IMG/VR virus record: IMGVR_UViG_3300006916_000335
Coordinates: 1 to 25,830 of that record
Direction: 5' to 3' (one strand)
Length of the DNA: 25,830 nt
DNA from: a virus
This document shows, one piece after another, positions 5,915 to 22,400 of the stretch (position 1 is the stretch's first letter; the number at the start of each line of letters is the position of its first letter). The notes below the pieces were generated by a model. It was not told the DNA's origin. It saw only the letters and a list, made by a program, of their open reading frames with translations, and ran no database searches. The translations under genes and the position numbers were made by a program.

Positions 5915-6176
5915 TACGAAGGTCCTTCGCGGCTAGGCCACCGGGCTTCCAATTTGGAGGTACGTCAAAAGGGTTGAAATGAATGTCCGAAAGATTCAGA
6001 TTATTAGTTGCTTTCGGCGGTTGTTGGACCGGAAGATCCACATTCTTGTCGTGGGCGTAGTAAGCCCTAGCCATTGCTTCGTACAGGAAGTACGGAATCG
6101 TGACTGGCTGGTGGGCAGGATCAGACTCTGCTCCCCCCACTTGGGGGGTCTGTGGCGGCTCTTGCGAGTAGTTCAT
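5874..6176 (-). CDS. Hypothetical 100-residue protein between terminase and portal
   Basis: The start is ATG at 6176 with GGAG seven bases upstream; the start lies inside the end of the terminase gene (56-base overlap) and the end overlaps the portal start by 41 bases. The product is polar and Pro/Asn/Gln-rich, with a central helical patch IPYFLYEAMARAYYAHDKN (about residues 27-45) and an acidic end. It has no motif I recognise. Genes in this slot are often small head-assembly or joining proteins, but nothing in the sequence shows that here. Its overlap with terminase contains one copy of the dispersed TCCCCCCAC nonamer and a C6/G6 hairpin (6133-6148). Confidence 0.7.
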   Translation of the reverse strand: MNYSQEPPQTPQVGGAESDPAHQPVTIPYFLYEAMARAYYAHDKNVDLPVQQPPKATNNLNLSDIHFNPFDVPPNWKPGGLAAKDLRNASAPVQTSQEED

Positions 6177-10476: not shown

Positions 10477-12021
10477 TTATCGGGGATAGGAACCCACGGT
10501 GTATCCGTGCGAGTAGGGATCAACCATGATCGGCTGACCGTTACCGAACCCAAGGAAGTGACCGATTCTCTGGAGAGGGTTGGGACCGAAGAAGCCTCGG
10601 TTGGAGTCGCTTGCAGTAAACGGCCTTCGGTTCCCCTGAGCGTCAACCGGCATCATCGCCAGAGGGTTTGCTGCTTCCTCGGGAGTAAGACCACGAACTC
10701 CAATCATGGGGTTTGCCTGTGCGCCTGTGAGGTATCCCCCCACTGCGTCCATGGCCCCTCCATACTGAGGAACAGGGACTCCACCCGCTGGCGGGTATCC
10801 CATTCGTTGACGAAGGTTTGCTTCGTTCAAAGAAGGGTCGTGTCCCTGCCTTGCGGTTGCGTCATCGAAGTCAGCGTAGTTGTAACCGGGGACTCCTCCG
10901 GTCATGGCTCCGGGTGGAGCGGCAGGAGGGGCCGCATTCAGTGCGTTGTTGTCGTCCACCGCCTCAACGAAACGCCGCTCTCGCTGTGCTTGGCCCGCCG
11001 CATCATATTGATTTTGGATATGGGCTCCGCGAGCATCAGATCCCTGCTGGTACATGGGCTGATTCTGAGCCCCGTAACCACTGTTATACGGCATTCCAAC
11101 AGGAGCCGGAAGCATCGGTGTTGGAAGCGTGCCGGGAGTTGCCTGACCATAGTGAGTCACCGTGGGCAGGTACGGTGCTGGTGCTGGGCCAAGACCCGAG
11201 CCTTCAAAACCCGGAGGGTTGTAAGGGGTCGGGGGAGGAAGTTCATCGGCATATGGCCCGCCGCCACGCTGGTCCGTTGAGAAGGGACCGGGGTTGGGAC
11301 GCATCGAGGGGTAGTGAGCGTAGACCACCGCCTGAAGAGGATTCGGCCCAAGTTCCTGCTGAACAGGAGGAGCCTGTGCAGGCATGAGGGTCGGGGCGGG
11401 AGCGGCGGGCACAGGAGACTCGACGATCTCCGATCCTTGCCCCCCACCATATACCTCTTCCTCGACGGGCTGAGGAAGCACGGGCGGGGTGTTTCGGCGG
11501 GCTTCGGCCTCTGCTTCTGCCGCACGGGTCTCTGCAACAAGTGCTTCTACGTCTTTTCGGTCTTGTGCAAGTTTTTCTTCGAGACGGTCTAGGTCTCGCT
11601 CAACCCGTGCGAACTTCTTGTCTTTGTTCCGACGCTTGGTCGCTTCTCTGGACGCCTCATCGCGTTCTATCTGACCCTTGGTGCGACCACGACTTGACAC
11701 GACATTCATTTCTCGTCGCCGATCGTCGATCGTCTTTGTTCTCGCGGGGTTCCGGCCACCAAACGGTCCCGCGTTTACGCGGTAGTTGGCGATTTCAGTC
11801 GCCTTCAGTGCATCGTTTGTAGGCGAGTACTCGTTTCGCGGAGCATTTTGCATCATTGTCATGAGAAGTCGCATGACATCGTCGAAACTTGTGGTACTCT
11901 GCTTGGTGCGGGAATCCTGACCCTGCTTCGTCGAATCCTTGCCCTTGAGTTCCTCGCCCTTTTTGGTCGTGGGATCTTTCTTGTCCGTCGTGGAATCTTT
12001 CTTGGCCTTGTCCTTTAGCAT
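10477..12021 (-). CDS. Proline-rich, partly coiled-coil virion protein; first gene of the leftward arm
   Basis: The product is 514 residues from ATG at 12021, with AAAGG eight to nine bases upstream in the divergent gap. Three parts can be seen. Residues 1-45 are Lys/Asp/Thr/Ser-rich and highly charged. Residues about 95-175 are Arg/Lys/Glu-rich and strongly helical, with VERDLDRLEEKLAQDRKDVE typical of a coiled coil. From about 175 to the end the protein is Pro/Gly/Tyr/Asn/Gln-rich low complexity (for example PAPAPTLMPAQAPPVQQELG). No catalytic motif is seen. Such composition is common in phage internal or tail-associated proteins. The start lies only 34 bases from the divergent helicase gene. 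Confidence 0.8.
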   Translation of the reverse strand: MLKDKAKKDSTTDKKDPTTKKGEELKGKDSTKQGQDSRTKQSTTSFDDVMRLLMTMMQNAPRNEYSPTNDALKATEIANYRVNAGPFGGRNPARTKTIDDRRREMNVVSSRGRTKGQIERDEASREATKRRNKDKKFARVERDLDRLEEKLAQDRKDVEALVAETRAAEAEAEARRNTPPVLPQPVEEEVYGGGQGSEIVESPVPAAPAPTLMPAQAPPVQQELGPNPLQAVVYAHYPSMRPNPGPFSTDQRGGGPYADELPPPTPYNPPGFEGSGLGPAPAPYLPTVTHYGQATPGTLPTPMLPAPVGMPYNSGYGAQNQPMYQQGSDARGAHIQNQYDAAGQAQRERRFVEAVDDNNALNAAPPAAPPGAMTGGVPGYNYADFDDATARQGHDPSLNEANLRQRMGYPPAGGVPVPQYGGAMDAVGGYLTGAQANPMIGVRGLTPEEAANPLAMMPVDAQGNRRPFTASDSNRGFFGPNPLQRIGHFLGFGNGQPIMVDPYSHGYTVGSYPR

Positions 12022-12030
12022 GAAATTGAC

Positions 12031-12054
12031 CTTTATGAGTCTGGAGACTTAAAG
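12031..12054. promoter_or_regulatory. Quasi-palindrome filling the divergent gap
   Basis: Arms CTTTA plus AGTCT (12031-12035, 12038-12042) match AGACT plus TAAAG (12045-12054), with a two-base TG interruption on the left and a GG centre. It occupies most of the 34 bases between two divergent genes. Its arms contain the likely ribosome binding sites of both: AAAGG on the minus strand and GGAG on the plus strand. It could be an operator or an RNA hairpin that hides either ribosome site. No convincing promoter boxes were found in the gap. Confidence 0.5.
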
Positions 12055-12055
12055 C

Positions 12056-13456
12056 ATGACCACCCAAACGCAGACGCAGACCCTTGCGTCTCCCGAACCC
12101 TTGCAAGTGGCACGATACCTCTTGGGTACGAGGTTCTCTACTCCAAACAATCGAAACGGATTGTGGTATTGGCGAGGCAATTTCTTCGAATGGTACGGAG
12201 AAAGGTGGCAAAAGCGAGATCTTGAGTGGGTTGAGTCCGCATTGTGGGTGTCTTTGGAGAACGTCACCTACAACCAAGCCACCCAAAACGGCCAGAGGCA
12301 GGTTCGTTACGCGCCCGACATTAACAAGATAAAGGGGGTTGTGCGTGCGTTGCAGGCGTTGCAGACGCTTCCGCACGAACACACCCCCGCTTGGATTACG
12401 GCACCCAAGACCAAGGAGACCAGAACCCTTGTGTCTTTTGCCGACACCGTTCTTGACGCCAAGACTGGTGACAAGTTTGATCGTGACGAAACATTCTTCG
12501 ACCCGAACGTGCTTCCCTGCAACTTCGACCCCTCCGCAAAGTGCCCTATCTGGCACCAGTGCTTGAGGGAGTGGAGTGGCGGCGACCCGGAGTGGAGCAA
12601 TCTACTCCAAAGGATGTTCGGGTATTGCCTGCTCCCGCACCGCGATTATGCCAAATGGTTCCTGATGTACGGCAAGATTCGTGGGGGCAAGGGTACCATC
12701 ATGACGATCCTCAAAGCCCTACTTGGGGAGGGCTATATGGGCACCTGCCTTGAGGATATCGCTGGTCAGTTCGGGCTCTGGGGCATCGAACAAGCAAGGG
12801 TCATGGCGATCAATGAAGTATCCGAGATATCGAATCGTGAAGGAGAGGCTGCGTGCCGTGTCCTCAAGTCAATCGTGGGGCGGGACCCGATCTCCATCAA
12901 TCGTAAATTCGAGCAGCCACTCCGGAACGTGGTCGTGGATGCCGTCCCGATCATGCAGTCAAACGAGATTCCGCGTCTCCCCAACAAGGGGCTCGGGCTG
13001 TCTGGGAAGATGGTTCTACTTCCCTTCACGGTGAGTTTCGCGGGGCGAGAGAACTACCGGCTGGCAGAACAGTTGCTGGCCGAATTGCCCGGTATTGCGT
13101 ACTGGGCATGGCAGGGGGCCAAGTTCATAGAGGCAGAATCGGACCCCAAGCGTAAGTTCCCCATGCCGGATCGGTCCTTGGCGTTGATTGACGAGTACCA
13201 CGCCGTCAACAACCCTATCGACGAGTTCCTGTCTGCCCGGTTTGAGGAGAAGGAAGGCAGTTTTGTGTCTTCCGAGGCCCTCTTTACCCACTGGAAAGAG
13301 TGGAGTAAGGAGTTGCGAGTGCCCCCAATGAGCCAAAACCAGTTGATCTACCGGCTTGTTGAAGGCACCACGTGGAACCTTACAAGGGCTCGTATTGGGT
13401 CTAAGCGGACCCGTGGGCTGCGTGGGCTAGCAATGCGACCACAAGCGACCAGTTGA
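12056..13456 (+). CDS. SF3 (P4/D5-type) replicative helicase without a visible primase domain
   Basis: The product is 466 residues. Residues about 150-200 (PNVLPCNFDPSAKCPIWHQC, then LLQRMFGYCLLPHRD) match the region before the ATPase in P4-family phage/plasmid primases. Walker A is GKIRGGKGT (206-214), a GKGT variant I know in phage members. Walker B-like AINEVSE (251-257) and the SF3 sensor-type Asn in IMQSNEIPRL (about 299-308) follow. There is no AEP or TOPRIM primase motif in the first 145 residues, so it is probably a helicase alone, with priming supplied elsewhere. The start has GGAG about 10 bases upstream. It is the first gene of the rightward arm, immediately before the origin-like repeats. 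Confidence 0.85.
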   Translation: MTTQTQTQTLASPEPLQVARYLLGTRFSTPNNRNGLWYWRGNFFEWYGERWQKRDLEWVESALWVSLENVTYNQATQNGQRQVRYAPDINKIKGVVRALQALQTLPHEHTPAWITAPKTKETRTLVSFADTVLDAKTGDKFDRDETFFDPNVLPCNFDPSAKCPIWHQCLREWSGGDPEWSNLLQRMFGYCLLPHRDYAKWFLMYGKIRGGKGTIMTILKALLGEGYMGTCLEDIAGQFGLWGIEQARVMAINEVSEISNREGEAACRVLKSIVGRDPISINRKFEQPLRNVVVDAVPIMQSNEIPRLPNKGLGLSGKMVLLPFTVSFAGRENYRLAEQLLAELPGIAYWAWQGAKFIEAESDPKRKFPMPDRSLALIDEYHAVNNPIDEFLSARFEEKEGSFVSSEALFTHWKEWSKELRVPPMSQNQLIYRLVEGTTWNLTRARIGSKRTRGLRGLAMRPQATS

Positions 13457-13642
13457 CGACCACAACATGCGGTCTACCCAGAGGGGGCTTCCTGATGGCA
13501 GGAGGCCCCTTCTGACCATACTGACCACACCCTTTCGAGAAGTAGGGTGAGATATAAATAGGTATAAGGTATAGGCCCCGTGTGGTCACTGCGGTCACTG
13601 CGGTCATATCGGCGTTCTTGACACCGAAAACGGCGACCACAC
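13437..13642. repeat. Iteron-like repeats and AT-rich block: candidate replication origin
   Basis: GACCACA occurs on the plus strand at 13437, 13458, 13523 and 13635 and inverted at about 13580. TGACCACAC (13522-13530) and GTGTGGTCA (13580-13588) form a perfect 9-base inverted pair. Between them lies an AT-rich stretch with repeated GGTATA-like words (about 13551-13574). Directly after comes a 9-base tandem: GGTCACTGC at 13584 and 13593, then the partial copy GGTCATATC at 13602. Repeats flanking AT-rich DNA next to a helicase gene are typical of an origin. A repressor-binding region is the alternative. Confidence 0.5.
13480..13513 (+). terminator. Long hairpin after the helicase gene
   Basis: A 15-bp stem with two G-U pairs (13480-13494 against 13499-13513) encloses a 4-base loop ATGG. 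It starts 23 bases after the helicase stop. No T-run follows, so it may be a weak terminator or an RNA 3' protector. It also sits within the origin-like repeat region. Confidence 0.55.
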
Positions 13643-13817
13643 CCGACCAGACTACCCAGCCGCAGAATTTTGATACGGGAGGGGTCTTTCTACTGTGTGG
13701 AGAACAGCCGACGTGGGGCCACAGGGGGGGTCCCCTCAAAACCGATGCCACCAGACCGGCTCAGTCTTTTTAGGTACTCCGACCCCACCTAGTCTAACCA
13801 TTAACCGCGTGCCTGCT
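13643..13817. other. Non-coding stretch, no gene recognised
   Basis: Between the repeat region and the leader hairpin of the next gene I see no credible gene. Open frames here have poor starts and lack natural-looking protein sequence. The stretch holds G-runs (a run of seven G near 13724-13730) and short C-rich patches. Together with 13457-13642 and 13818-13880 it makes the largest gene-free part of the window, about 420 bases. Confidence 0.6.
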
Positions 13818-13839
13818 GCCCCGTCCAAAGCGACGGGGC
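13818..13839 (+). promoter_or_regulatory. Leader hairpin before the 112-residue gene
   Basis: A perfect 8-bp stem (GCCCCGTC at 13818-13825 against GACGGGGC at 13832-13839) encloses a 6-base loop CAAAGC and ends about 41 bases before the ATG at 13881. There is no T-run after it. Similar GC hairpins lie a comparable distance before the genes at 14431 and 15640, which suggests a common leader element. Confidence 0.45.
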
Positions 13840-13880
13840 TGACGCAGTCCCGCACATTACTCACGCTCAAGGAGATTACC

Positions 13881-14219
13881 ATGAGCCGTTCACACCCTTC
13901 GTCGTCCGATCTTCTCGCTCTCGTGCAGTCCGAGCAGGTCGCCTTCATTCTCACCGCCACCGTCCGCAAGCGTCGTGTGGTTGAGATGTCCAACGGAGAG
14001 TCCAAGACCGTTGTCACCGCGAGTGTCTTGCCCACCAAGACCAAACTGCCCGTCATGATTGACGGCGACGAGTGGACTCTCAAGTACGACGACTTCTCCA
14101 AGTCTGTCGTCCTCGAACGCTGGGACGAAACCGACGCTCAGGCGAAGGCCAATGCCAAGATTCGGGCGAAGGCCGATGCCAAGAAGTCCGATGAGGCTTC
14201 CGGCGATCTCCCCGTCTGA
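13881..14219 (+). CDS. Hypothetical 112-residue protein with charged Ala/Lys/Asp tail
   Basis: The ATG at 13881 is preceded by AAGGAG at ideal spacing. The first 80 residues look like a compact beta-rich domain (FILTATVRKRRVVEM, then TVVTASVLPTKTKLPVMIDG and EWTLKYDDF). The C-terminus is a helical, highly charged tail (TDAQAKANAKIRAKADAKKS) ending in acidic and polar residues. I do not recognise the family. A small beta domain with a charged tail beside a possible origin would suit a nucleic-acid-binding protein, but there is no motif to show it. It is followed within 21 bases by a canonical terminator, so it may be a one-gene transcript. Confidence 0.8.
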   Translation: MSRSHPSSSDLLALVQSEQVAFILTATVRKRRVVEMSNGESKTVVTASVLPTKTKLPVMIDGDEWTLKYDDFSKSVVLERWDETDAQAKANAKIRAKADAKKSDEASGDLPV

Positions 14220-14239
14220 CTCCTCCCTCCCCTCTCTCC

Positions 14240-14273
14240 CCAGTCTCCGCTTCGGCGGGGGCTGGGTTTTTTT
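14240..14273 (+). terminator. Canonical intrinsic terminator with UUCG loop
   Basis: An 11-bp stem (14240-14250 against 14255-14265, two G-U pairs) is closed by C(TTCG)G, the extra-stable tetraloop, and followed by G and seven T. It is a textbook Rho-independent terminator 20 bases after the stop of the preceding gene. Confidence 0.93.
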
Positions 14274-14342
14274 CTGCGCCGCTCCCCCCTGTCGTCGGCT
14301 CCCCCCCTGCTTGCTCTACGACATAGCCCACAGTTGTTCTTT

Positions 14343-14394
14343 GACGTCGGTGGCGGGTCTGCGGAGGCGGCAGCGCAGACACCGCCACCACGTC
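14343..14394 (+). promoter_or_regulatory. Very strong 20-bp hairpin in the leader of the DUF2493 gene
   Basis: Three stacked stems pair perfectly: GACGT/ACGTC, GGTGGCGG/CCGCCACC and GTCTGCG/CGCAGAC. One single-base bulge lies on each strand, and the loop is the 10 bases GAGGCGGCAG. The element ends 36 bases before the ATG at 14431 and has no T-run. It lies downstream of a complete terminator, so it probably belongs to the leader of the next transcript. It could be an RNase III-type processing site, a protein-binding leader, a small RNA or a DNA cruciform. Confidence 0.6.
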
Positions 14395-14430
14395 GGTTGT
14401 GGTGTACTCATTTGCCTTTTGGAGATTCAC

Positions 14431-14799
14431 ATGCGTCTCATTATTGCTGGTGGTCGGGACTTCACTGACCTTGTTTTTCTTCGGCAGTCCATGTCCTTCT
14501 TCACTGATGTGTACCACGATGACCCCATCACTGAGGTTGTCTGTGGCATGGCTCGTGGTGCTGATCTCGCTGGTCGGCGTTGGGCTGGTGAGCAGGGCAT
14601 TGCTGTTAAGGAGTTCCCTGCTGACTGGGTTCGTCATGGTCGCAGGGCTGGCCCTATTCGTAACGGCGTCATGGGTGACTACGCAGATCAGGCTGTTGTC
14701 TTCTGGGATGGTAAGTCCCGTGGCACTAAGCACATGATTGACTACATGGGTGCTGTTGATAAGCCCGTCTTTATCTTTAACTACGGAGGTGACTCATGA
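14431..14799 (+). CDS. DUF2493 (YspA-like, SLOG superfamily) protein
   Basis: The product is 122 residues with a GGAG ribosome site before the ATG. The family pattern is clear: an N-terminal strand with IIAGGRDFTD (4-13), CGMARGADLAGRRWAGE (38-54), a REFPADW-like KEFPADW (60-66), RAGPIRNGVM (72-81) and VVFWDGKSRGTKHMI (89-103). SLOG proteins have a Rossmann-like fold and bind nucleotides or related ligands; the function of DUF2493 in phages is not established. It opens a four-gene set: its ATGA stop overlaps a 52-residue gene, followed by an RHH protein and a P-loop kinase. Codons ending in T are more frequent here than in the structural genes. Confidence 0.88.
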   Translation: MRLIIAGGRDFTDLVFLRQSMSFFTDVYHDDPITEVVCGMARGADLAGRRWAGEQGIAVKEFPADWVRHGRRAGPIRNGVMGDYADQAVVFWDGKSRGTKHMIDYMGAVDKPVFIFNYGGDS

Positions 14800-14954
14800 G
14801 ATTTCTCAGGCGTTGGATCGTGCGTTGGCTGGAAGATGATCTTCGTTGGTTCCTTATGGAGGAGGTGAGCAATCAAGAACTCATCTCCGACTGGGAGGTG
14901 GCGGAGAAGATTGAGGATTTGAGAATCGAGATCGAAGAAAGGAGCGTCCGATGA
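14796..14954 (+). CDS. Hypothetical 52-residue charged protein
   Basis: The ATG at 14796 overlaps the TGA of the DUF2493 gene (ATGA), and the stop overlaps the next ATG in the same way. The product starts MRFLRRWIVRWLEDDLRWFL, an amphipathic Arg/Trp-rich helix. It continues as an acidic helical region (ISDWEVAEKIEDLRIEIEER). The strict stop-start overlaps at both ends are the main support. No family is recognised. A helix of this kind could bind a membrane surface or a partner protein; that is inference. Confidence 0.7.
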   Translation: MRFLRRWIVRWLEDDLRWFLMEEVSNQELISDWEVAEKIEDLRIEIEERSVR

Positions 14955-15115
14955 AGGATGATGAATTCATGATGTCTGTTCGTTTGACTCAGGAGATCAA
15001 AGAGTCTCTTGATCGTTACTGCAAAGAGGAGGATCGCACTCGTGCTGCTGCGGTCCGACGGTTCATTCGTTTCGCACTTGCTGAATGGGAGAAGGTCAAT
15101 GACTCATCGTGGTAA
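14951..15115 (+). CDS. Ribbon-helix-helix (CopG/Arc-like) DNA-binding protein
   Basis: The product is 54 residues with an ATGA overlap to the preceding gene. It has the RHH layout: a short strand MMSVRLTQEI (7-16), helix KESLDRYCKEED (17-28), a turn with RTRAAAVRR, and a second helix RRFIRFALAEWEKV (36-49). RHH proteins bind DNA as dimers through the strand and commonly repress their own operon. The inverted repeat at 16544-16561 and the palindrome at 12031-12054 are possible targets, but nothing in the sequence links them. It was identified by reading all frames; it is a short but convincing gene. Confidence 0.8.
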   Translation: MKDDEFMMSVRLTQEIKESLDRYCKEEDRTRAAAVRRFIRFALAEWEKVNDSSW

Positions 15116-15557
15116 GTTGGTAATCGTGAGGGGGCTTCCCGGCAGCGGGAAGTCCTCTCTGGCCCGTGCAATCTCGCATCCCAGTTGTCATTGGGAGGCG
15201 GACATGTACTTCTGTCGTACCTTCGATGAGTTCGGCAACGAAGATGGGTACGACGGACCATATATGTTTGACCCCAGTCGTCTTGCTGATGCACACGCTT
15301 GGTGTCTCAAGATGACCGAGTCATTCATGGACAACACCAACAACATGGTGGTAGTCAGCAACACTTTCTCCCGTCTTTGGGAGATGAAACCCTACCTTGA
15401 CCTTGCAGAACGCAAGCGTTGGGCTGTCTCTGTCATCAAGGTGGTTGGTTCTCATGGGTCCATCCATTCGGTTCCCGTTGAAACCATCGCTCGTATGCGT
15501 GATGGTTGGGAACACTTCCCCGGTGAGATCACCGTGGAAACATGTGGTCTGGGATAG
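15099..15557 (+). CDS. P-loop kinase of the N4BP2-like (polynucleotide kinase-type) AAA family
   Basis: The product is 152 residues from ATG at 15099, overlapping the RHH gene by 17 bases. Walker A is GLPGSGKSS (12-20), preceded by a KLVIVR strand. A WEADMYF segment (about 33-39) sits where these kinases carry the lid/Asp strand. VVVSNTFSRLWEMKPYLDLA (about 84-103) and the late SIHSVPVETIARMRDGWE match the N4BP2 pattern (HGVPxExIxxMxxRWE). Members are related to the 5'-polynucleotide kinases of phage T4; substrate here is unknown. No phosphatase domain is attached. An in-frame upstream extension to 15009 lies over the RHH gene and is rejected. Confidence 0.85.
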   Translation: MTHRGKLVIVRGLPGSGKSSLARAISHPSCHWEADMYFCRTFDEFGNEDGYDGPYMFDPSRLADAHAWCLKMTESFMDNTNNMVVVSNTFSRLWEMKPYLDLAERKRWAVSVIKVVGSHGSIHSVPVETIARMRDGWEHFPGEITVETCGLG

Positions 15558-15560
15558 CCT

Positions 15561-15603
15561 ACGACGCTGGCCGCCCGCAGAGCCGGGGCGGCTGGCGCGT
15601 CGT
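15561..15603 (+). terminator. GC hairpin between the kinase gene and the next gene
   Basis: Outer stem ACGACGC (15561-15567) pairs with GCGTCGT (15597-15603); inner stem GGCCGCCC pairs with GGGCGGCT, separated by a small asymmetric internal loop. It begins 4 bases after the kinase stop and ends 36 bases before the next ATG. Only a broken pyrimidine tract (CTTCTTCT) follows, so termination may be partial. Confidence 0.55.
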
Positions 15604-15639
15604 GCATCCTTCTTCTATATCGTGATTGGAGATTTCGAT

Positions 15640-16140
15640 ATGCGTATGATTTGGATTTCTTGTTCTGAGTTTCTCAAGTCCGATCGACTCGGACGGCTTC
15701 GTCAGGCTTGGTATTGGCCCGGTGAGCGGGGTCATCCTCAGCCCGAAGGTTGGTACCACGGTGACAACATCGGTCCTTTCTCTGAACAGACTGATTGTTG
15801 GAGAGACGCTGCGATCCGTGATGCTGTTCAGAAGCACGTTGTCGGCAAGGCAGTGTGGGGGTACAAGGGTGATGGAGTTCTTCTTGTGGAGTGGATTGAC
15901 CACGAGAACAACGTCGAACACTGGATCGCTGGCCGCCCGGTCAACGATACGCCCGGTGACATCATCTCCTTTCGTATGTACCACGAAGAGTTCATGAAGT
16001 TCATGAACGGCGAGTTGATTCAGACTGCTATGCCCAATGCATCTGATACCGAGCGTGAGTTCCTGCTGTCAGGCATCTGGGCACCCGGCAATGTCTGGGA
16101 TGAGTTGATGAGTGGTGAGTTGGAACTCGACGTCGAATGA
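15640..16140 (+). CDS. Hypothetical 166-residue Trp-rich protein
   Basis: The ATG at 15640 follows GGAG nine bases upstream. The product is rich in aromatic residues, with tryptophans in WISCSEF, WYWPGERGHPQPEGWYHGD and WGYKGDGVLLVEWID. Residues about 80-120 look like a beta-sheet domain (KAVWGYKGDGVLLVEWI). The C-terminal third is helical and acidic, ending ELELDVE. I know no family. The gene is alone between a hairpin and a strong terminator, so it is probably transcribed as its own unit. T-ending codons are common, as in the neighbouring early genes. Confidence 0.8.
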   Translation: MRMIWISCSEFLKSDRLGRLRQAWYWPGERGHPQPEGWYHGDNIGPFSEQTDCWRDAAIRDAVQKHVVGKAVWGYKGDGVLLVEWIDHENNVEHWIAGRPVNDTPGDIISFRMYHEEFMKFMNGELIQTAMPNASDTEREFLLSGIWAPGNVWDELMSGELELDVE

Positions 16141-16156
16141 TCTGCAATCTCCTGCG

Positions 16157-16192
16157 ACTGGGGGGGACTTCGGTCCTCCCCGGTTGTTTTTT
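16157..16192 (+). terminator. Canonical intrinsic terminator with UUCG loop
   Basis: A 12-bp stem (16157-16168 against 16173-16184, two G-U pairs) is closed by C(TTCG)G and followed by TG and six T. It starts 16 bases after the preceding stop codon. Confidence 0.93.
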
Positions 16193-16226
16193 ATCTGTCT
16201 CCGTTACACAAGCCAAGGACTTAGAT

Positions 16227-16484
16227 ATGGTCGCATCAAACAAATCGTATGACATCAAGGACTACGAGGCACACCCGTTGTTTGCTCTCGGTGTTCCCAT
16301 CTTGCAGAAGCACTTCGACAAGATGAGAGAAGCCATGGAAGAAGGCGACATCATGAAGGTCGCCATGGAAGAGCATTCTCTTACTGGCCTTGACCTGTAC
16401 GCCATGGCGTACTCATTCAAGACTCTTCTCGATATCAACCAAGAAATCATCTCGAAGAAAGAGAATGATGGTGAGGAATGGTGA
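16227..16484 (+). CDS. Hypothetical 85-residue helical protein
   Basis: The ATG at 16227 has AAGGA eight bases upstream. The product is acidic and appears fully helical: GVPILQKHFDKMREAMEEGD, KVAMEEHSLTGLDLYAMAYS, and LLDINQEIISKKENDGEEW at the end. There are five methionines in the central part and no cysteine. No known motif is seen. It is flanked by terminators on both sides (16157-16192 and 16490-16543), which marks it as a single-gene unit. Small acidic helical early proteins in phages are often modifiers of host proteins, but that cannot be judged here. Confidence 0.8.
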   Translation: MVASNKSYDIKDYEAHPLFALGVPILQKHFDKMREAMEEGDIMKVAMEEHSLTGLDLYAMAYSFKTLLDINQEIISKKENDGEEW

Positions 16485-16489
16485 ACGAA

Positions 16490-16543
16490 CGCCACCCACC
16501 GGCACGTTCGTGCCGCCGGTGGGCGGCGGTTCTTCTTTTTTTT
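16490..16543 (+). terminator. Intrinsic terminator with long GC stem and T-tract
   Basis: CGCC and CCCACC on the left (from 16490) pair with GGTGGG and GGCG on the right (to 16528), with one mismatch. The inner stem is GGCAC/GTGCC around GTTC with a 3-base bulge. A tract of T interrupted by two C follows, ending in eight T. It starts 5 bases after the stop codon of the preceding gene. Confidence 0.88.
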
Positions 16544-16561
16544 CTTGGTATGTATGCCAAG
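16544..16561. promoter_or_regulatory. Palindromic operator-like site
   Basis: CTTGGTAT and ATGCCAAG form 8-base arms (one T-G mismatch to perfect symmetry) around a GT centre. The site lies directly after a terminator and 34 bases before the ATG at 16596, where a promoter/operator would be expected. A 2-base centre is too small for an RNA loop, so a DNA-binding dimer site is more likely. The RHH protein encoded at 14951 is one candidate binder, by inference. Confidence 0.45.
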
Positions 16562-16595
16562 AGTTTATTGACCTGCATTCAGTGAAAGGAATGCG

Positions 16596-17225
16596 ATGGA
16601 TATTTACGAGCGTCTTAACCAGACGGCGTTGATGGTTCCCAACGTGACTACGGTTGCCCTGACCGCAGTCGTCCCCGGTTCGAAGCCCGCTGTCAGCGTG
16701 TGCTTGTTCTCCCATCCCGACGACGTTTCGACTGGTGTTCAGAAGTACGAGAACATCGGCATGGTGTATGCCCCGAACGCCAAGTTGCGTCCGCAGAAGG
16801 TGACGCAGTCTGATGGCGAGGTGCGTTCTGTTTCCATCAACATTGGTGGTCTGCATCTCACTTCGTTCCTTGAGGCTGCTGGTGCTACCGAGGATGAGAT
16901 GGTTGCGATCTTCACGGCTGATCGTGATGACCGCATCGCTCTTCTTCAGCAGTTCGTTGGTGTCTGTGTTGACTGTCCGATGACTGGCCGCGTCAAGGGT
17001 GACGACGGTCAGACTCGCATCAACTTCAAGTTTGACAAGTTGGATGAATCGGCGTTTGCCGACTTCACTTCCTTTGTCGAGCGGCAGAAGTGTGCCTTCT
17101 CTGCTTGTGACGACCAGACTCTTGGTGACACTCTCACCAAGGAGGCTGCTCGTAGCAGGATGACTCGTCCCGATGAGGGTGTTGTCCCGACTGGTGTGCA
17201 GGAAGGTGATGAACTGTTGGCGTGA
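16596..17225 (+). CDS. Hypothetical 209-residue early protein
   Basis: The ATG at 16596 follows AAAGGA at 5 bases; a nearer ATG at 16591 is out of frame. The N-terminal part looks beta-rich (VTTVALTAVVPGSKPAVSVC, YENIGMVYAPNAKLRPQKVT). The centre is helical and acidic (LTSFLEAAGATEDEMVAIFT, then DRIALLQQFVGVCVDCPMTG). A second beta region follows (RVKGDDGQTRINFKFDKLDE), with four cysteines overall between residues 125 and 170. The C-terminal 25 residues are polar and acidic. I know no family. Size, beta content and acidic tail are compatible with a single-strand DNA-binding protein but do not show it. Confidence 0.8.
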   Translation: MDIYERLNQTALMVPNVTTVALTAVVPGSKPAVSVCLFSHPDDVSTGVQKYENIGMVYAPNAKLRPQKVTQSDGEVRSVSINIGGLHLTSFLEAAGATEDEMVAIFTADRDDRIALLQQFVGVCVDCPMTGRVKGDDGQTRINFKFDKLDESAFADFTSFVERQKCAFSACDDQTLGDTLTKEAARSRMTRPDEGVVPTGVQEGDELLA

Positions 17226-17247
17226 CACTTCTGTCACTCCCGTCGCA

Positions 17248-17279
17248 TGGGGGGAGGTGGGTACGCCTGCCTCCCCCCA
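17248..17279 (+). terminator. 14-bp hairpin with UACG loop
   Basis: The arm TGGGGGGAGG followed by TGGG (17248-17261) pairs through to A at 17279 with two G-U pairs around the loop TACG, a UNCG-class tetraloop. No T-run follows; it ends 18 bases before the next ATG, just ahead of GGAAGGA. It may attenuate or process the transcript, or regulate entry to the next ribosome site. Its 3' arm contains a copy of the dispersed nonamer TCCCCCCAC (17272-17280). Confidence 0.6.
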
Positions 17280-17297
17280 CTTTGTGGAAGGAATCAC

Positions 17298-17882
17298 ATG
17301 ACACTTATCAGAGTCAGCGACATACGGGACAATGATGTTCACCCGGATGCAGGGATGTCCAACATCCCATGGGAAACAGAGTATGGATACCAGCGATCAC
17401 CCAACGAGTTGGATGAGCAGGGTGACATACTCTCTGAGATTCTTTGGTATGACAGTGACACGCAGGACGAGTCTGTACTCGACGGCTTGTCTCCTGATCG
17501 ACCGACTTACCGTGGCAACCAGAAGGTATCGGAAGGCACCTTCATCACTCGCATATCTGTACGCAGTGGTGACAAGATCGTCCAGCGATCTGTTCGGCGT
17601 GAATGGCTCATCGAGCAGGCGAATGCTTTGCTTCGTGCTGCCGCTGAACTACACAGTGTTGAAGTCCAGCGTGAGTACATTCACGAAGCCGAGGGCGAGG
17701 TGGCTGGCACGATGCCGGGAGAGACTTTGTACTCTGGCCCGTGTATTCATGTCGTCTACGAAGTTCATCCCGACAAGATGCTTTGCCTTGTTGTCGATGA
17801 CGTGGTCTTTCCTGTCAAGCAGTTGACAGATCTTCGTGGCTTCGAGTGCATTGGAAAGTTGGTATTCGAGGATGATAGTTGA
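17298..17882 (+). CDS. Hypothetical 194-residue acidic protein
   Basis: The ATG at 17298 follows GGAAGGA. The first 75 residues are rich in Asp, Glu and Ser and look loosely folded (DNDVHPDAGMSNIPWETEYG, then DILSEILWYDSDTQDESVLD). Residues about 80-130 contain a strand-helix pattern ending in EWLIEQANALLRAAAELHSV. The C-terminal 50 residues are hydrophobic strands (GPCIHVVYEV, MLCLVVDDVVFPVKQLTDL). No motif is recognised. The stop overlaps the start of the next gene by 11 bases, so these are probably translated together. Confidence 0.75.
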   Translation: MTLIRVSDIRDNDVHPDAGMSNIPWETEYGYQRSPNELDEQGDILSEILWYDSDTQDESVLDGLSPDRPTYRGNQKVSEGTFITRISVRSGDKIVQRSVRREWLIEQANALLRAAAELHSVEVQREYIHEAEGEVAGTMPGETLYSGPCIHVVYEVHPDKMLCLVVDDVVFPVKQLTDLRGFECIGKLVFEDDS

Positions 17883-18072
17883 ATTCAAAGTGGTTCGACT
17901 TGACGACAAGATCATCCAAGTGAGTTCAAACAGAACGGATTACCCTACTGTTGGTACTCTTCCTCTTGTGTCAACCAAACGAATCGAAGTTTCGGTGTAC
18001 CCTCAGTTGCCTGCAATGGCTAAACAGTTTTACCAGTCACTCTTGAGACAGATGAAAGGAGGTATCCAATGA
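17872..18072 (+). CDS. Hypothetical 66-residue protein
   Basis: I place the start at ATG 17872, eleven bases inside the previous gene; upstream in-frame starts would only lengthen the overlap. The product begins MIVEFKVVRLDDKIIQVSSN and continues through TKRIEVSVYPQLPAMAKQFY. This suggests several beta strands and a C-terminal helix. The end overlaps the next ATG (ATGA). No family is recognised. Confidence 0.7.
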   Translation: MIVEFKVVRLDDKIIQVSSNRTDYPTVGTLPLVSTKRIEVSVYPQLPAMAKQFYQSLLRQMKGGIQ

Positions 18073-18224
18073 AGCGTTCCGAACGTAAAGCAATGCGTGT
18101 TCGTGAGGCTGAGGAGCGACTCGCCAGATGGCGGTCCCTCACCGACGAACAACGACTGGCTGAACTCGACAAGCGTCGAGGCAACAGCACCAAGCAGAAG
18201 GCTCGCATCAAAGCGGGCATGTGA
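18069..18224 (+). CDS. 51-residue basic helical protein
   Basis: The ATG at 18069 overlaps the preceding TGA and follows AAAGGAGG about 9 bases upstream, an excellent ribosome site. The product is Arg/Lys/Glu/Ala-rich and almost wholly helical: it starts MKRSERKAMRVREAEERLAR, has TDEQRLAELDKRRGNSTKQK and ends KAGM. Function unknown; nucleic-acid binding is plausible from charge. It is the last gene before a 269-base gap with a canonical terminator. Confidence 0.75.
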   Translation: MKRSERKAMRVREAEERLARWRSLTDEQRLAELDKRRGNSTKQKARIKAGM

Positions 18225-18311
18225 TACACGCATGGGAGGCACCTGAAGTAACGGGAATAAGACCTCCGCTCACTTTGTCCCTTTAAAAAGCGAGGTGCGT
18301 GATGCAACTGG

Positions 18312-18346
18312 GTGGCACTGGCTTCGGCCAGTGTCACTCTTTTTTT
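18312..18346 (+). terminator. Canonical intrinsic terminator with UUCG loop
   Basis: An 11-bp stem (18312-18322 against 18327-18337, one G-U pair) is closed by C(TTCG)G and followed by TC and seven T. It lies 88 bases past the preceding stop codon in the 18225-18493 gap. A weaker hairpin with one bulge (18262-18270 against 18289-18296) precedes it. Confidence 0.93.
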
Positions 18347-18389
18347 ATGTGGAGCCAGCAGTTTAGACGCCGACATTTAATTGAATAAT

Positions 18390-18427
18390 GGGAGCGTCCC
18401 GCCCGCAAGCGGGCGGCGGGACGCCCC
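18390..18427 (+). promoter_or_regulatory. Second GC hairpin in the gap before the repair/replication block
   Basis: GCGTCCCGCC on the left pairs with GGCGGGACGC on the right, with outer GGG/CCC pairs beyond a bulged A and a CCCG/CGGG inner stem with a small loop. No T-run follows. It lies 66 bases before the ATG at 18494, after a full terminator, so it probably belongs to the leader of the next long transcript. Confidence 0.5.
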
Positions 18428-18493
18428 AGTACTTGTGGTTCTGTTGTTTACCACGGGTAGATGTTTCGATTCTATCCATGGGAAAGGTGAACC

Positions 18494-18757
18494 ATGGAGA
18501 CCCCAATGATCGGTGAAGAAGTTGCAGCGAACTTTGAAACATTCATGCGTGCAGCCAAGAACGGCGACATTGCACTTGTTTCATGCAAGGACAAGAAGGG
18601 GCGGGAGTATCAAGTGTTGTCTGTTGTTGCAACAGGGGTAGAGAAGTATGCCTACCTGCCTTTCGCAATGATGATCACGCCTGCTTTCTATCCACTCGTC
18701 AACAAGTTAAATCCCCCCACCAAACTGAAAGGAGAGTGGCTTTGGGATGACGACTGA
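18494..18757 (+). CDS. Small protein of the DUF6117-like 'NGDIALVSCKDK' type
   Basis: The product is 87 residues, with AAAGG six bases before the ATG. The pattern NFETFMRAAKNGDIALVSCK, then REYQVLSVVAT, YAYLPFAMMI and LNPP near the end resembles small phage proteins (FxTLxRAxxNGDxALVxCxDxxxGExxxVIxAV...FVPFAxM...NPP) that I associate with DUF6117. Function is unknown. It is the first gene of a long overlapping series and overlaps the next start by 11 bases. Probably a compact beta-sheet protein with an N-terminal helix. Confidence 0.7.
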   Translation: METPMIGEEVAANFETFMRAAKNGDIALVSCKDKKGREYQVLSVVATGVEKYAYLPFAMMITPAFYPLVNKLNPPTKLKGEWLWDDD

Positions 18758-19433
18758 CATATCACTTCCAACCTTTTCTTCGCAGCCCTCATGCACGCGA
18801 TGTGACTTGCATCAGGGAGCCAAGAATCCGGGGGTTCCGACACGGTTCTTTGAACAGTCGGAGCCCTCTTCTACTAGGCCACCACTCATCGTGGTCGGCA
18901 TGAACCCCGGATACCAAGAGGACGCCAAGAACAAATGCTTCGTGGGACCAAGTGGAGACCTGCTTACCAAGGTCTACCTCAATCACGAAAACATTCTCAA
19001 GTCCCCCATCTATTTCACAAACGCAGCAAGATGTGCAACGCTGGAGAAAAACGCAACACCCAAACGAAAGCACTACAAAGAATGCTTTGTGTATCTGCAC
19101 GAAGACATTGAATCAATCGTCAACCACCATGGCTCTGCCTTCATGCTGTGTTTAGGTAGCCATTCCTACGCGACGATCAGTCAGTTCCTGCTTGGCAAGC
19201 AGAGGTCCTTGCGACATGGCTTTGCAAACCAAGGCCAGCCTGCTGAACTCCTGTTCAACAACAAGATCAACATCTATACAACCTTTCACCCTGCCGCAGT
19301 GCTGCGTGAGAAGAAGTATCTCTATCCAGTTTCGGATCACATTGACTTGCTTGGCCGTGCAATGTCAGGCAAACTACCCACCCCCTCAACCCCGGACATC
19401 ATTGAACCGATGTTCTTTGGAGTAAACAAATGA
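18747..19433 (+). CDS. Uracil-DNA glycosylase superfamily protein, family 4-type
   Basis: The product is 228 residues. Four cysteines occur in the spacing used by family 4 glycosylases to hold a 4Fe-4S cluster: CTRC (16 and 19), then C96 and C113. Catalytic-region motifs are IVVGMNPGYQED (48-59; the family pattern is GEAPGxxED), FVGPSGDLL (65-73), TNAARC (91-96) and the late FHPAAVLRE (180-188). The enzyme class removes uracil from DNA; the Met-Asn in place of the usual Glu-Ala in motif 1 could alter activity. It is co-transcribed with the polymerase and overlaps the next gene (ATGA). Repair of the phage genome or a replication-accessory role is likely. Confidence 0.85.
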   Translation: MTTDISLPTFSSQPSCTRCDLHQGAKNPGVPTRFFEQSEPSSTRPPLIVVGMNPGYQEDAKNKCFVGPSGDLLTKVYLNHENILKSPIYFTNAARCATLEKNATPKRKHYKECFVYLHEDIESIVNHHGSAFMLCLGSHSYATISQFLLGKQRSLRHGFANQGQPAELLFNNKINIYTTFHPAAVLREKKYLYPVSDHIDLLGRAMSGKLPTPSTPDIIEPMFFGVNK

Positions 19434-19678
19434 AGAAGACGAAAAAGACCACGAAGAAGAAGGTCGTTCGGAACACATACACCCGAGCCACCAAGTCCAC
19501 GCCCTACATGATCAACCGTTCTTACATTCTCCACGTTGGCTTCAACAAGGAGAAGGGTGGAATCAAGGTCCTTAAGGCTTTGGAAGAATTCATGGATGAC
19601 TACGGTCTTGAGACCAAGGGTCCTGCCTGTCGTGTAATCATCAAGCGATTCCTTCGAGACAACGGATACCTCAAGTGA
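19430..19678 (+). CDS. Hypothetical 82-residue Lys-rich protein
   Basis: The ATG overlaps the stop of the glycosylase gene (ATGA). The first 25 residues are very basic (MKKTKKTTKKKVVRNTYTRA). The rest has a strand SYILHVGFNKEKGGIKVL and two helices (LKALEEFMDDYG and CRVIIKRFLRDNGYL). No family is recognised. The stop overlaps a GTG start of the next gene. The tail of the next protein's fold (GGVFILHALEDFVKEY) resembles this one's GGIKVLKALEEFMDDYG, so the two may be distant paralogues. Confidence 0.75.
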   Translation: MKKTKKTTKKKVVRNTYTRATKSTPYMINRSYILHVGFNKEKGGIKVLKALEEFMDDYGLETKGPACRVIIKRFLRDNGYLK

Positions 19679-19947
19679 AAAGAACCTGCGACCGAGACTT
19701 CACGATCGACACCGAGTACTGCGAACTCAAAGGGACGGTTACTCTCGACATCACCGACGATGTCACGACCGTCATTTCCGTTGGGTTTGAAGGAGGAGGA
19801 GTCTTCATCCTTCATGCTTTGGAAGACTTCGTAAAGGAGTACATCCCCACCCTCGAAGAGTACGACGCCTTCAACCTACGCCAAGAGGAGAAGGAGTGGG
19901 ACCAATCCCAAGATGCGGATGCTTGGCGTAAAGAGAGGCATGAATGA
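19675..19947 (+). CDS. Hypothetical 90-residue acidic protein (GTG start)
   Basis: The start is GTG at 19675, overlapping the preceding TGA (GTGA), and the end overlaps the next ATG (ATGA). The product has beta strands in the first half (GTVTLDITDDVTTVISVGFE), a helix GGVFILHALEDFVKEYIPTL and an acidic, Gln/Trp-containing C-terminal helix. No known motif is seen. It shares the GG-x-hydrophobic-x-ALEDF/ALEEF helix with the preceding 82-residue protein but is acidic rather than basic. Confidence 0.72.
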   Translation: MKRTCDRDFTIDTEYCELKGTVTLDITDDVTTVISVGFEGGGVFILHALEDFVKEYIPTLEEYDAFNLRQEEKEWDQSQDADAWRKERHE

Positions 19948-20267
19948 ACAAACTCAACGCCCGAGAACGACGGGATCTAGAGGACGGAATCAGACGTGCC
20001 ACCGCTCTGTTGACCTATCGGGCTGAGTGGGCGTGGTTTCAGAAACGACGTTCGTGCGACATTCTGATCCGTGCGATAGAACATTCAAAGTCTGCCAAAG
20101 AACTGTCTTACCTTACGGGGATAGCCAGTGGTAGCATCACGCAACTCAAGAGAGGCATCACCAAAATGAAGCCTGAGCAATACTTCAAGATCATCGCCAA
20201 GGTGTACCCCGAATACGCCAAGTTGATTGAAGCGGAACTCCGTGACATAGAAAGGCTGGAAGATTGA
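19944..20267 (+). CDS. Helix-turn-helix protein immediately before the DNA polymerase
   Basis: The product is 107 residues. The central segment SAKELSYLTGIASGSITQLK (50-69) followed by RGITKMKPEQYFKI has the spacing of an XRE/Cro-type helix-turn-helix, with LTGIASGSITQLKRG matching the common LTGVSxxTISxLERG pattern. The N-terminal 45 residues are basic and helical. It overlaps the preceding gene (ATGA), and its TGA ends directly before the polymerase ATG. It may regulate early genes or bind the origin; no target can be read from the sequence. Confidence 0.72.
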   Translation: MNKLNARERRDLEDGIRRATALLTYRAEWAWFQKRRSCDILIRAIEHSKSAKELSYLTGIASGSITQLKRGITKMKPEQYFKIIAKVYPEYAKLIEAELRDIERLED

Positions 20268-22400
20268 ATGAACCTAATCAGCCTCGACATCGAGACGTAC
20301 GGAGCAGCAAAGGCCAACCACATCGGCCTACTTCTGCCACAGCAGACAGTGTTCCACCCACGCAAGTCGGAGTACATCGACGAAGTAGCAAAGGAGAACT
20401 TGATTCTGACTGCGGCAGTGACACTGCCAAAGACTCCCCCCACATCGAGCGAATTGAACTTCGACTTGCTTGCTGGGCTGGAGCCCGGTTCGACGATGGT
20501 CTTCCAACTCCATCTCGAAGAACATAGGAAGATGCTGGCGTCTTGGATCTGGAATGCAGATGTCATCCTCGGCATGAACCTGCCGTTCGACATCCAGTAT
20601 CTCAAGTACTGCGGGTACGCTTTTCATAACTGGACGAAACTCGTAGACCTGTCTGTACTGAACTACCTGCACTCAGAGTTGCGGGAAGAGCGTAGCCTCA
20701 AGGCTCTCGGCCCTATCCTTGGGGCGTACTCATACTCCGAGACACTGAAGACCGTCAGGTACAAGCGGCCTACCGACGCCAAACTGCTTCAGTACAACGC
20801 TCAAGACACACACAACACGATGCTTGCGATCAGCGAACTGTCCAAGCGTTTGATTGAGGAAAAGTTTGACTCCCATTACGACTACTTCCGTGGTGCTTAC
20901 GCCCTTGGGTTTTATTCAAAGAGCCTCAAGGTCAGCATCGAAATGTCAGAGTCCGGAGTGCCCATGTCTTCGCATCAACTTCTCCGTCTCATGGACAAGT
21001 GCAAAGCAGAAACAGCAGAGGCAGAAGAAGAGGCTCGAGAGTACGACCTTATTCTTTACGGTCCCGGTTCCGCGAAGAGCAAGGACAAGTTCATCGGCGA
21101 AGTCATCAAGTTGATCGAGGAAGTATCGAACCCCGACATCATGGATGCACTGGACGTGACCCCCAAAAGCAAGAAAGTCTCGTTCTCCGACAAGAACCGG
21201 ACCACCCTGTACGAAGCACTGCCTGAGGGCATCGACGCCGACATGTACCGACGCTGCCTTGATGCAGCCAAGAAGCACAGCAAGGCAATGAAGTTGATGT
21301 CGTCGTACTGCTATCCGTTGCTTTACCACCGACGCAACAAGCCGGAGGACATGTCATCCATCATCATTCCGCCTGACATGAAGACGGCAACGCACGTCAC
21401 AATGGAAGTTCCTGTCTACAAAACTCCTGCCGACAGAGTGGATGCAGCCGACAAGAACCTGAGTGATGAGAAGATCAAGTTGATGAAGGGGAGGTTCAGC
21501 GGGGTGAGGCTACCGGGGAGTGGCGATGCCATCGCCTACCCGACGTGGTACGTCACACCATCCCACATCAAGAACGACACGGGCAGTAGTGGCGGCACCA
21601 TTCAGGGCCGCATTACCTGCAAGCAGCCGTCCGCCCAGACATTCCCGAAGCCCATCAAGGCATGTATCCGTAGCCGGTGGGACCGGGGCAGCATCGTGGC
21701 GATGGACCTGTCGCAGGCAGAACTACGGGTGGCAGCCCTCCTATCGGGCGAGGCCAGCATGATCGACGCCTACCAGAACGACCGTGATCTCCACGCAGAG
21801 AGGGCACGCACACTCTGGGGGGACTACGACGTTGACGCTACCTCGCAGCATCAACGCAGGCAGGTCGGCAAGATGATGAACTTCGCCGACTTGTTCTTGA
21901 GTAGTGCCAACACCATGCGTGAGCAGGTGTACGCACAATCCGGAGGTGACATCCTACTTCCTTTGTCTTTCTACCAGAAGGTTGTGAAGGAGAGGAGCAA
22001 GGTTCGACCGTCCCTTACCAAGTGGCAGCAGGGACTACTTGAAAAAGTGAAGACCGAACGCAGAATCATGTTGCCACGCACCGGGCAATCAAGGACTTTT
22101 CTTGGAGACCTTGGTGCAATCAAGTCAGAAGTCGTCAACTTCCCCGTGCAAACCACGGCAGGCAACGTGACTTTGGCAATCCAACACTTTCTTCTTGACG
22201 AGTTGGATCCGAATGTCAAGATGTTCCTACAGATTTACGACGCGGTGTACCTTGACTGCCCGCCTAATCTCGTGGATCATGCGAAGGACTGCATCGACAG
22301 AGCAGTGAACCACGTTGCAACCGTGGGATACTGGCATTCGCTTCAAGTTATCTATAAGAACAAGGTTCCTCTGAAGCACGACGTGGAGACTTGGGACTGA
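20268..22400 (+). CDS. polA: Family A DNA polymerase with 3'-5' exonuclease
   Basis: The product is 710 residues and replicates phage DNA. The exonuclease domain is intact: motif I DIET (D7, E9), motif II NLPFD (D108) and motif III YNAQD (Y176, D180). The polymerase domain shows GRITCKQPSAQTFPK (template-binding region), motif A MDLSQAELRVA with D480, motif B from RRQVGKMMNFADLF (K535, N538) and motif C IYDAVYLD with D658. Motif C has Tyr and Ala where most members have His and Glu (HDE), and motif B has NFADLF instead of the usual NF/YGxxYG. The length fits short phage enzymes without the 5'-nuclease domain. The ERCC4 nuclease start overlaps its end. Confidence 0.93.
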   Translation: MNLISLDIETYGAAKANHIGLLLPQQTVFHPRKSEYIDEVAKENLILTAAVTLPKTPPTSSELNFDLLAGLEPGSTMVFQLHLEEHRKMLASWIWNADVILGMNLPFDIQYLKYCGYAFHNWTKLVDLSVLNYLHSELREERSLKALGPILGAYSYSETLKTVRYKRPTDAKLLQYNAQDTHNTMLAISELSKRLIEEKFDSHYDYFRGAYALGFYSKSLKVSIEMSESGVPMSSHQLLRLMDKCKAETAEAEEEAREYDLILYGPGSAKSKDKFIGEVIKLIEEVSNPDIMDALDVTPKSKKVSFSDKNRTTLYEALPEGIDADMYRRCLDAAKKHSKAMKLMSSYCYPLLYHRRNKPEDMSSIIIPPDMKTATHVTMEVPVYKTPADRVDAADKNLSDEKIKLMKGRFSGVRLPGSGDAIAYPTWYVTPSHIKNDTGSSGGTIQGRITCKQPSAQTFPKPIKACIRSRWDRGSIVAMDLSQAELRVAALLSGEASMIDAYQNDRDLHAERARTLWGDYDVDATSQHQRRQVGKMMNFADLFLSSANTMREQVYAQSGGDILLPLSFYQKVVKERSKVRPSLTKWQQGLLEKVKTERRIMLPRTGQSRTFLGDLGAIKSEVVNFPVQTTAGNVTLAIQHFLLDELDPNVKMFLQIYDAVYLDCPPNLVDHAKDCIDRAVNHVATVGYWHSLQVIYKNKVPLKHDVETWD

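Follow-up and report, generated by a model that had tools for sequence, protein, structure and literature searches.

Lambdoid morons are single genes private to a phage and flanked by hairpins or terminators, and Arbiol et al. are said to have described, in 2010, mobile regulatory cassettes of promoter and stem-loop in the gaps of the hypervariable early region of T4-type phages. For the early regions, the T5 record (AY543070) annotates Rho-independent terminators beside promoters where one short unit of small unknown genes meets the next. SaPI Rep, P4 alpha and SCCmec Cch2 are helicases with a C-terminal DNA-binding domain and have short iterons directly downstream (PMC7581432, PMC4234260), and the origin of plasmid pRN1 has a terminator and a stem-loop directly 3' of a primase/SF3 helicase/winged-helix gene, the stem being retained while its sequence varies (PMC4234260).

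The window, that is, the whole 25,830-nt stretch analysed here (IMG/VR record IMGVR_UViG_3300006916_000335), has no DNA match to named phages, and its protein matches to them are distant or absent. A tRNA search for a clue to the host returned none, and a search of genome contigs returned one match, the Myxococcales MAG contig L077, which is probably a binned phage and gives no basis for naming a host. Hairpins, T-runs, position-specific conservation, compensatory changes and a conserved motif were computed directly. We consider it likely from these features that the hairpins are the boundaries of short transcription units in the accessory region between an initiator gene and a replication operon.

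Gap hairpins and their conservation

Between 13.4 and 18.5 kb, in the right arm, 7 gaps exceed 20 nt; all of them hold a GC-rich hairpin, and for each gap only 0-1 of 200 dinucleotide shuffles of its own sequence matched its best hairpin. An earlier sequence-only reading, which had placed such a hairpin in nearly every gap, thus stands against at least 199 of 200 shuffles. The GC content of these gaps (52-64%) is what would be expected if GC-rich noncoding DNA folded without any function, but that explanation is highly implausible given the shuffle counts and the retention of position and pairing across relatives despite changed sequence. No gap hairpins occur from 18.5 to 25.8 kb, where genes abut or overlap.

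Four hairpins combine a GC-rich stem with a directly following U-tract, as intrinsic terminators do, all on the + strand. Three have C(UUCG)G loops and lie at 14239-14266 and 18310-18339 (T1), each with TTTTTTT, and at 16154-16187, with TTTTT; they had been read at 14240, 18312 and 16157, respectively. The hairpin at 16483-16535, previously singled out at 16490 for its long T tract, has a stem that is longer and imperfect and precedes TTCTTTTTTTT; the hairpin therefore counts as the fourth, and matching hairpins stand at the same junction in relatives L005, L007, L010 and L017. In the near-identical 45,289-bp contig G001, 4/5 strict + strand T-run terminators fall within the ~4-kb hairpin region and the - strand has 0, compared with 0-3 in shuffled genomes.

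The other strict hairpins of the window (13471-13526, 15553-15608, 17238-17292 and 18389-18428, the last designated HP2; all +) lack a T-run 3' of the stem on either strand, as does a further one at 14343-14394 (+), and for this reason none of them is filed as a terminator. Bidirectional termination by T-less hairpins was ruled out because the - strand has no T-run. Every hairpin listed earlier was recovered in its place, but that list had overlooked two, at 13818-13839 and at 14343-14394, the latter the strongest of all (-38.5 kcal/mol). The UACG loop without a T-run read at 17248 is present in the 17238 hairpin, closed as G(UACG)C and not as the extra-stable C(UACG)G; L010 and L021 have C(UUCG)G hairpins at this junction, the one in L021 with a T-run. 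The hairpin at 13471-13526, previously taken as punctuation at 13480, lies outside the 13.9-18.4 kb interval and inside the iteron region directly 3' of the initiator gene, a putative replication origin, and was therefore excluded from the punctuation set. An Rfam scan found no known RNA family (its single lncRNA match, E 0.58, is at chance level). The gap hairpins of the window share no common repeat family, the sole recurring sequence being an 8-nt motif, so homologous recombination between gaps is unsupported.

With hairpins in the gaps and four good intrinsic terminators, the region does appear to be cut into short units, as had been proposed. The small gene at 13881..14219 (+) is a single-gene unit, and none of nine related contigs has a relative of it in this region; this gene and that at 16227 each occur in 1/10 contigs and that at 15640 in 2/10, and these private single-gene units have hairpins on both sides. 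Gene 16596 is likewise flanked by hairpins, yet it belongs to a core block (16596, 17298, 17872, 18494 and UDG) common to 7-9 of 10 contigs. An operon at 14431..15557 (+) encodes an SLOG/YspA-like protein (PF10686), a 52-aa ORF, an RHH protein (PF01402) and an AAA_33 P-loop ATPase/kinase, and is separated from the 15640 gene by the 15553 hairpin. The replication operon at 18494..22400 (+) has no gaps and encodes an 87-aa protein, UDG (PF03167), small ORFs and a family A DNA polymerase (PF00476).

Covarying stems had been expected in relatives, and the hairpins do recur at homologous junctions with compensatory changes; a lack of stem conservation, which would speak against unit boundaries, was thus not observed. 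Within a relative the arms pair better than they do between relatives (permutation P = 1e-4 for J4-T1, 2.5e-4 for J4-HP2, 8e-3 for J3 and 5e-5 for J1), a comparison biased towards within-relative pairing because the arms were picked for folding. Less of this bias affects the gapless alignment of T1, which is small (six sequences) and in which 13/13 pairs are canonical throughout (78/78 cells), with both-sided swaps that include T-A/C-G, C-G/G-C and T-A/A-T. Because MAFFT put some short-hairpin stems in the wrong place, the hairpins were aligned without gaps, anchored on the loop.

Junction J3 carries a T-run form in some relatives and a T-less form in others, and L005 and L017 lack both gap and hairpin there, so the J3 hairpin is dispensable. 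This alternation, and the T-less state of about half of the hairpins, would suit hairpins that serve mainly to stabilise mRNA or as RNase III processing sites inside long transcripts made by read-through, and a stabilising effect of strong terminator hairpins on upstream mRNA has been reported (PMC11696848). We regard it as quite improbable that this replaces a boundary function, since four textbook T-runs cluster in the region, against none on the - strand, and the T-run of T1 is retained in most relatives.

A promoter-like motif and the proposed transcription units

The conserved CCGACATA motif, written as [AC]CGACAT[AT], has 11 noncoding matches against ~1 expected in the group's 17.5 kb of noncoding sequence. 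It stands shortly 3' of T-run hairpins or T-runs, and most of its noncoding matches have a T-less hairpin 13-70 nt downstream and the next gene at 95-180 nt. MCGACATW is not enriched inside the window alone (4 versus 2.5 expected), and the argument for it is drawn from its position in the sequences of relatives. Site A (ACGACATA, 14318..14325, +) is followed by the 14343 hairpin, which lies between the motif and the start of the 14431 operon. Site B (CCGACATTTAATTG, 18370..18383, +) lies 30 nt 3' of T1, and HP2, ~20 nt 3' of the motif, is probably the 5' leader of the 18494-UDG-polymerase operon.

This arrangement suggests that the CCGACATA motif is probably a promoter. CCGACAT was rejected as a simple -10 or -35 element because no partner hexamer recurs consistently 16-18 nt away in the aligned sites. 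A search for single-subunit RNA polymerase with PF00940 matched none of 13 records, several of which are fragments, and the controls were silent too. We note that the CCGACATWWNATTG motif resembles a T7 promoter in length. The sequence-only reading had held that every unit must have a promoter of its own or depend on read-through. Promoter-like conserved motifs support this for two units only, the 14431 and 18494 operons, and a sigma70-type promoter scan, which covers sigma70-type sites alone, was at chance level (6 versus 7.8 expected), so that read-through is likely for the remaining units.

We infer termination efficiency, promoter activity, leader position and read-through as follows. The T-run hairpins at 14239, 16154, 16483 and 18310 would terminate host RNA polymerase, given a host that uses intrinsic termination. 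The single-gene units 13881, 15640 and 16227, largely private to this phage, would be hairpin-bounded in the manner of morons. Ahead of the 14431 and 18494 operons the boundary would be tripartite, with a terminator, a CCGACATA promoter and, ~20-50 nt further on, a T-less hairpin that would be part of the 5' leader, shielding or insulating the mRNA. The units that lack the motif (15640, 16227, 16596 and 17298) would probably be fed by partial read-through, giving graded expression, and the T-less junction hairpins at 15553 and 17238 may stabilise or process 3' ends.

The same elements could instead form a nut-like RNA antitermination element, at which a factor-loaded polymerase would acquire the ability to pass downstream terminators, with promoters elsewhere. 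Such an element would be useful given the dense terminators, and the form is appropriate, a conserved linear motif with a variable hairpin behind it and site A upstream of several terminators. However, boxA-like sequences are not enriched (9 versus 8.3 expected), the conserved box present being a different one; both sites lie directly 3' of a terminator at an operon start, where a promoter is needed anyway, and few terminators lie downstream of site B. Antitermination of this kind is therefore unlikely. More tentatively than the boundary reading itself, we offer a minor possibility, that the CCGACATA box and leader hairpin are an undescribed phage-specific control, either a promoter of a new class or a nut-like site served by its own factor, which would set whether terminators are obeyed and so yield short units early and one long unit later. 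With the hairpins read as unit boundaries, the region offers a testable transcription map for an uncultured phage group, comprising four terminators, two probable unfamiliar promoters and hairpin leaders.

Putative initiator gene and origin

The gene at 12056..13456 (+) encodes a D5-type (SF3) primase/helicase (PF19263, E 1e-10; PF08706, 4.5e-6; phrog_6088 DNA primase, 1.7e-56; PDB 7ola, E 7e-15), a putative replication initiator with a predicted C-terminal winged helix. The full-length model is poor in the helicase core and the C-terminal model alone was used; it has a pLDDT of 87 and the winged-helix order of elements, and in fold comparison it comes closest to the RFX DNA-binding domain (1dp7), whose wing contacts the major groove (PMC2533330). 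No primase columns other than residues 449-452 (SKRT; codons at 13400..13411, +), in the predicted wing turn, separate relatives with GACCA iterons from those with GTACCA iterons. These four residues switch together with the iterons, and in one relative wing residues and iterons are exchanged as one block.

Several short iterons lie directly 3' of the helicase gene. The array (GACCA/TGGTC, 13437..13649, no strand assigned) counts 8 copies over 370 nt of the window, at 13437, 13447, 13458, 13514, 13523, 13583, 13635 and 13645, compared with mostly 7-16 in relatives, with a spacing of about one helical turn within groups and an AT-rich stretch at 13550-13576. Beyond it, AATTTTGATACGGGAGGGGTCTTTCT (13666..13691, +) is almost unchanged even in relatives whose primase identity is as low as ~62%. 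Judged by this layout, the region 3' of the primase gene is likely a replication origin. The putative initiator/origin pair, in which four adjacent wing residues and all iteron copies co-change, is possibly the more valuable side result, offering a natural specificity switch for probing the code by which D5-type phage initiators recognise their sites.

Comparison with known systems

The putative origin shares with SaPI Rep, P4 alpha and SCCmec Cch2 the layout of a helicase followed by iterons, the winged helix here coming from a predicted model, and differs in its GACCA or GTACCA iterons and the co-switching wing turn. As in pRN1, a hairpin lies directly 3' of a primase/helicase/winged-helix gene and the stem is kept under sequence change; pRN1 has no iterons, whereas this phage has many.

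The hairpin punctuation itself is of an already known kind. Like the T4-type cassettes, it combines a stem-loop with a candidate promoter between the genes of a hypervariable early region; unlike them, the hairpins within the window belong to no common sequence family, no homologous cassette recurs from gap to gap, and no host-type early promoter was recognised in a gap by the sigma70-type scan. Genes 13881, 15640 and 16227 resemble lambdoid morons in being private, absent from close relatives and bounded by hairpins or terminators, and differ in that their terminators are present but a promoter for each is not recognised. The density of punctuation had been thought unusual for a phage early region, but T5, lambda and N4 are equally dense in terminators per 4.5 kb with one detector throughout. 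In the T5 early regions, too, terminators and promoters separate short units made up of small unknown genes; the T5 record names its promoters, whereas here an unfamiliar CCGACATA is followed by a T-less hairpin.

Gene layout and hairpin punctuation

The window, a 25.8-kb IMG/VR contig, derives from an uncultured phage in which structural genes, including that for the terminase large subunit (6121-8061, phrog_38), run leftward and replication genes run rightward, in the order D5-type primase/helicase (12056-13456), small genes, UDG, family A DNA polymerase, ERCC4-like nuclease (weak match) and metallophosphoesterase. A DNA-level search for named phages gave no match to the window. A 45,289-bp contig, G001 (loci L002, L014, L020, L038 and L045-L047), is nearly identical to it, and its primase and polymerase recur in further contigs, the primases being 62-91% identical among them. 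One contig of the group, L077 (PCCS01000007.1), sits in the bin of a Myxococcales metagenome-assembled genome; this is probably a binning artefact and not a sign of the host. The divergent arms lie only about 35 nt apart (12021-12056), so the promoter of at least one arm is probably inside coding sequence.

The sequence-only reading had placed a hairpin in nearly every gap of the early region, and strict GC-rich hairpins indeed occupy all seven right-arm gaps >20 nt up to 18.5 kb, each equalled by at most 1 in 200 dinucleotide shuffles of its own gap. T-runs follow four of them. The hairpins it listed are present, but it overlooked the strongest (14343-14394). The loop at 17248 is G(UACG)C, without the closing pair behind the extra stability of UNCG loops. 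From 18494 onward, genes abut or overlap, without gap hairpins. Across the whole 45 kb of G001, four of five strict plus-strand terminators fall in this region, and the same scan found none on the minus strand. The sole sizeable gap of the structural arm holds a very strong hairpin without a T-run (1389-1437; -36.7 kcal/mol on the plus strand, -26.6 on the minus).

A single detector was run on T7, lambda, T4, T5, N4 (first 50 kb each for T4, T5 and N4), P-SSP7, SIO1 and one Alteromonas phage. Four to six terminator-like sites per 4.5 kb, counts that take in false positives in coding DNA, were reached in T5, lambda, N4, T4 and the Alteromonas phage, and in the T5 record the short early units are separated by annotated terminators and promoters. 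By this comparison the density in the window, previously considered unusual, is ordinary, and the punctuation is of a known kind.

Nearly every gene between the primase and the kinase (AAA_33 P-loop ATPase/kinase, last gene of the 14431 operon) is private to one contig; g16596, g17298, g17872, g18494 (window genes named by start) and UDG are common to 7-9 of 10 contigs. The single-gene units at 13881, 15640 and 16227 have hairpins on both sides and are private or nearly so, which fits moron-like acquisition, although the core gene g16596 is likewise hairpin-bounded on both sides.

Conserved junctions and a three-part boundary

Four junctions are comparable across relatives because their neighbouring genes are homologous: J1 (after the primase), J2 (before g16596), J3 (g16596 to g17298) and J4 (before g18494). 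Stems are conserved, as the proposed punctuation demanded: hairpins return at the same places with differing sequences, and all 13 pairs of the J4 terminator are canonical in all six gaplessly aligned sequences, with both-sided changes at several pairs. Hairpin arms pair better within than between relatives, a result to be read with caution since the arms were chosen as hairpins. At J3 neither gap nor hairpin remains in the relatives L005 and L017, so that hairpin is dispensable. The punctuation is real and conserved, and the comparative evidence indicates that it is functional.

J4 runs from a terminator through 28-74 nt to a conserved box, CCGACAT(A/T)..ATTGCA, then about 20 nt, a strong T-less hairpin and the next gene. 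The same box, with a T-less hairpin after it, precedes the 14431 operon and recurs at a comparable place in L005, L007, L011 and L017. The group's noncoding sequence, 17.5 kb, holds 11 copies of the 8-mer [AC]CGACAT[AT] where about one is expected, two further J4 copies (L005 and L017) being masked by over-extended gene calls; the 8-mer is not enriched in the window alone. Every site comes after a terminator and stands at the head of an operon, so the box is most simply read as a promoter; no sigma70-type partner hexamer was evident beside the box. The most interesting alternative is that box and hairpin form a nut-like RNA element. Part of the interest of these findings lies in this unfamiliar boundary, whether promoter or RNA element.

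Putative origin and primase wing

Phased short repeats (iterons, 13437-13649) and an AT-rich stretch occupy the gap after the primase, together with a 26-mer that hardly varies among relatives. The 26-mer, AATTTTGATACGGGAGGGGTCTTTCT, lies at 13666-13691, between the iterons and the next gene; it is retained down to about 62% primase identity and was not found in a distant clade (39-48% identity). The window, L004 and L005 carry GACCA repeats and most other close relatives GTACCA repeats; the distant clade has GACCA once more, with only two copies in its member L035.

The primase C-terminus was modelled as a winged helix (pLDDT 87), with its best fold match to the RFX DNA-binding domain (1dp7, E 1.4e-3), whose wing touches the major groove (PMC2533330). 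Among the window, L004-L013, L023, L025-L028, L032, L036, L037, L072-L074 and L077, residues 449-452 at the wing turn (13400-13411) are the sole primase columns with enough data that separate iteron types: SKRT, TKRT, DERI or EERI with GACCA, and xGGx with GTACCA, residue 451 being Arg in all of the former and Gly in all of the latter. A tree built without the wing requires at least two separate changes of iteron type. L005 combines a GTACCA-type primase body, closest to the GTACCA-type L006 (91%), with a window-type wing and iteron block, and from a recombination breakpoint near 13406 it resembles the window (90% versus 43% at 13466; L005:10001-11728 against L006:8770-10500 and window 12056-13783); its wing codons and iterons therefore seem to have been swapped together in a single block. 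This is most likely an unusually clear natural specificity switch of a putative initiator/iteron pair.

The T-less hairpin at 13480 is most likely part of a putative replication origin, and herein lies the main interest. Its 13481-13517 stretch is 73% identical to 15128-15164, which codes for Walker A of the 15099 ATPase and also folds strongly; the likeness is probably chance. Iterons, winged-helix C-terminus, wing switch and a layout shared with SaPI and pRN1 together indicate that the region after the primase is most likely an origin of known kind. The SaPI Rep C-terminal domain recognises iterons directly downstream of rep's own gene (PMC7581432), and the pRN1 origin, with a stem-loop, has the same place relative to its gene (PMC4234260). 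As in SaPI, the iterons here directly follow the primase gene, C-terminal recognition being known there and putative here; as in pRN1, a stem-loop stands at this position, where the window has the 13480 hairpin.
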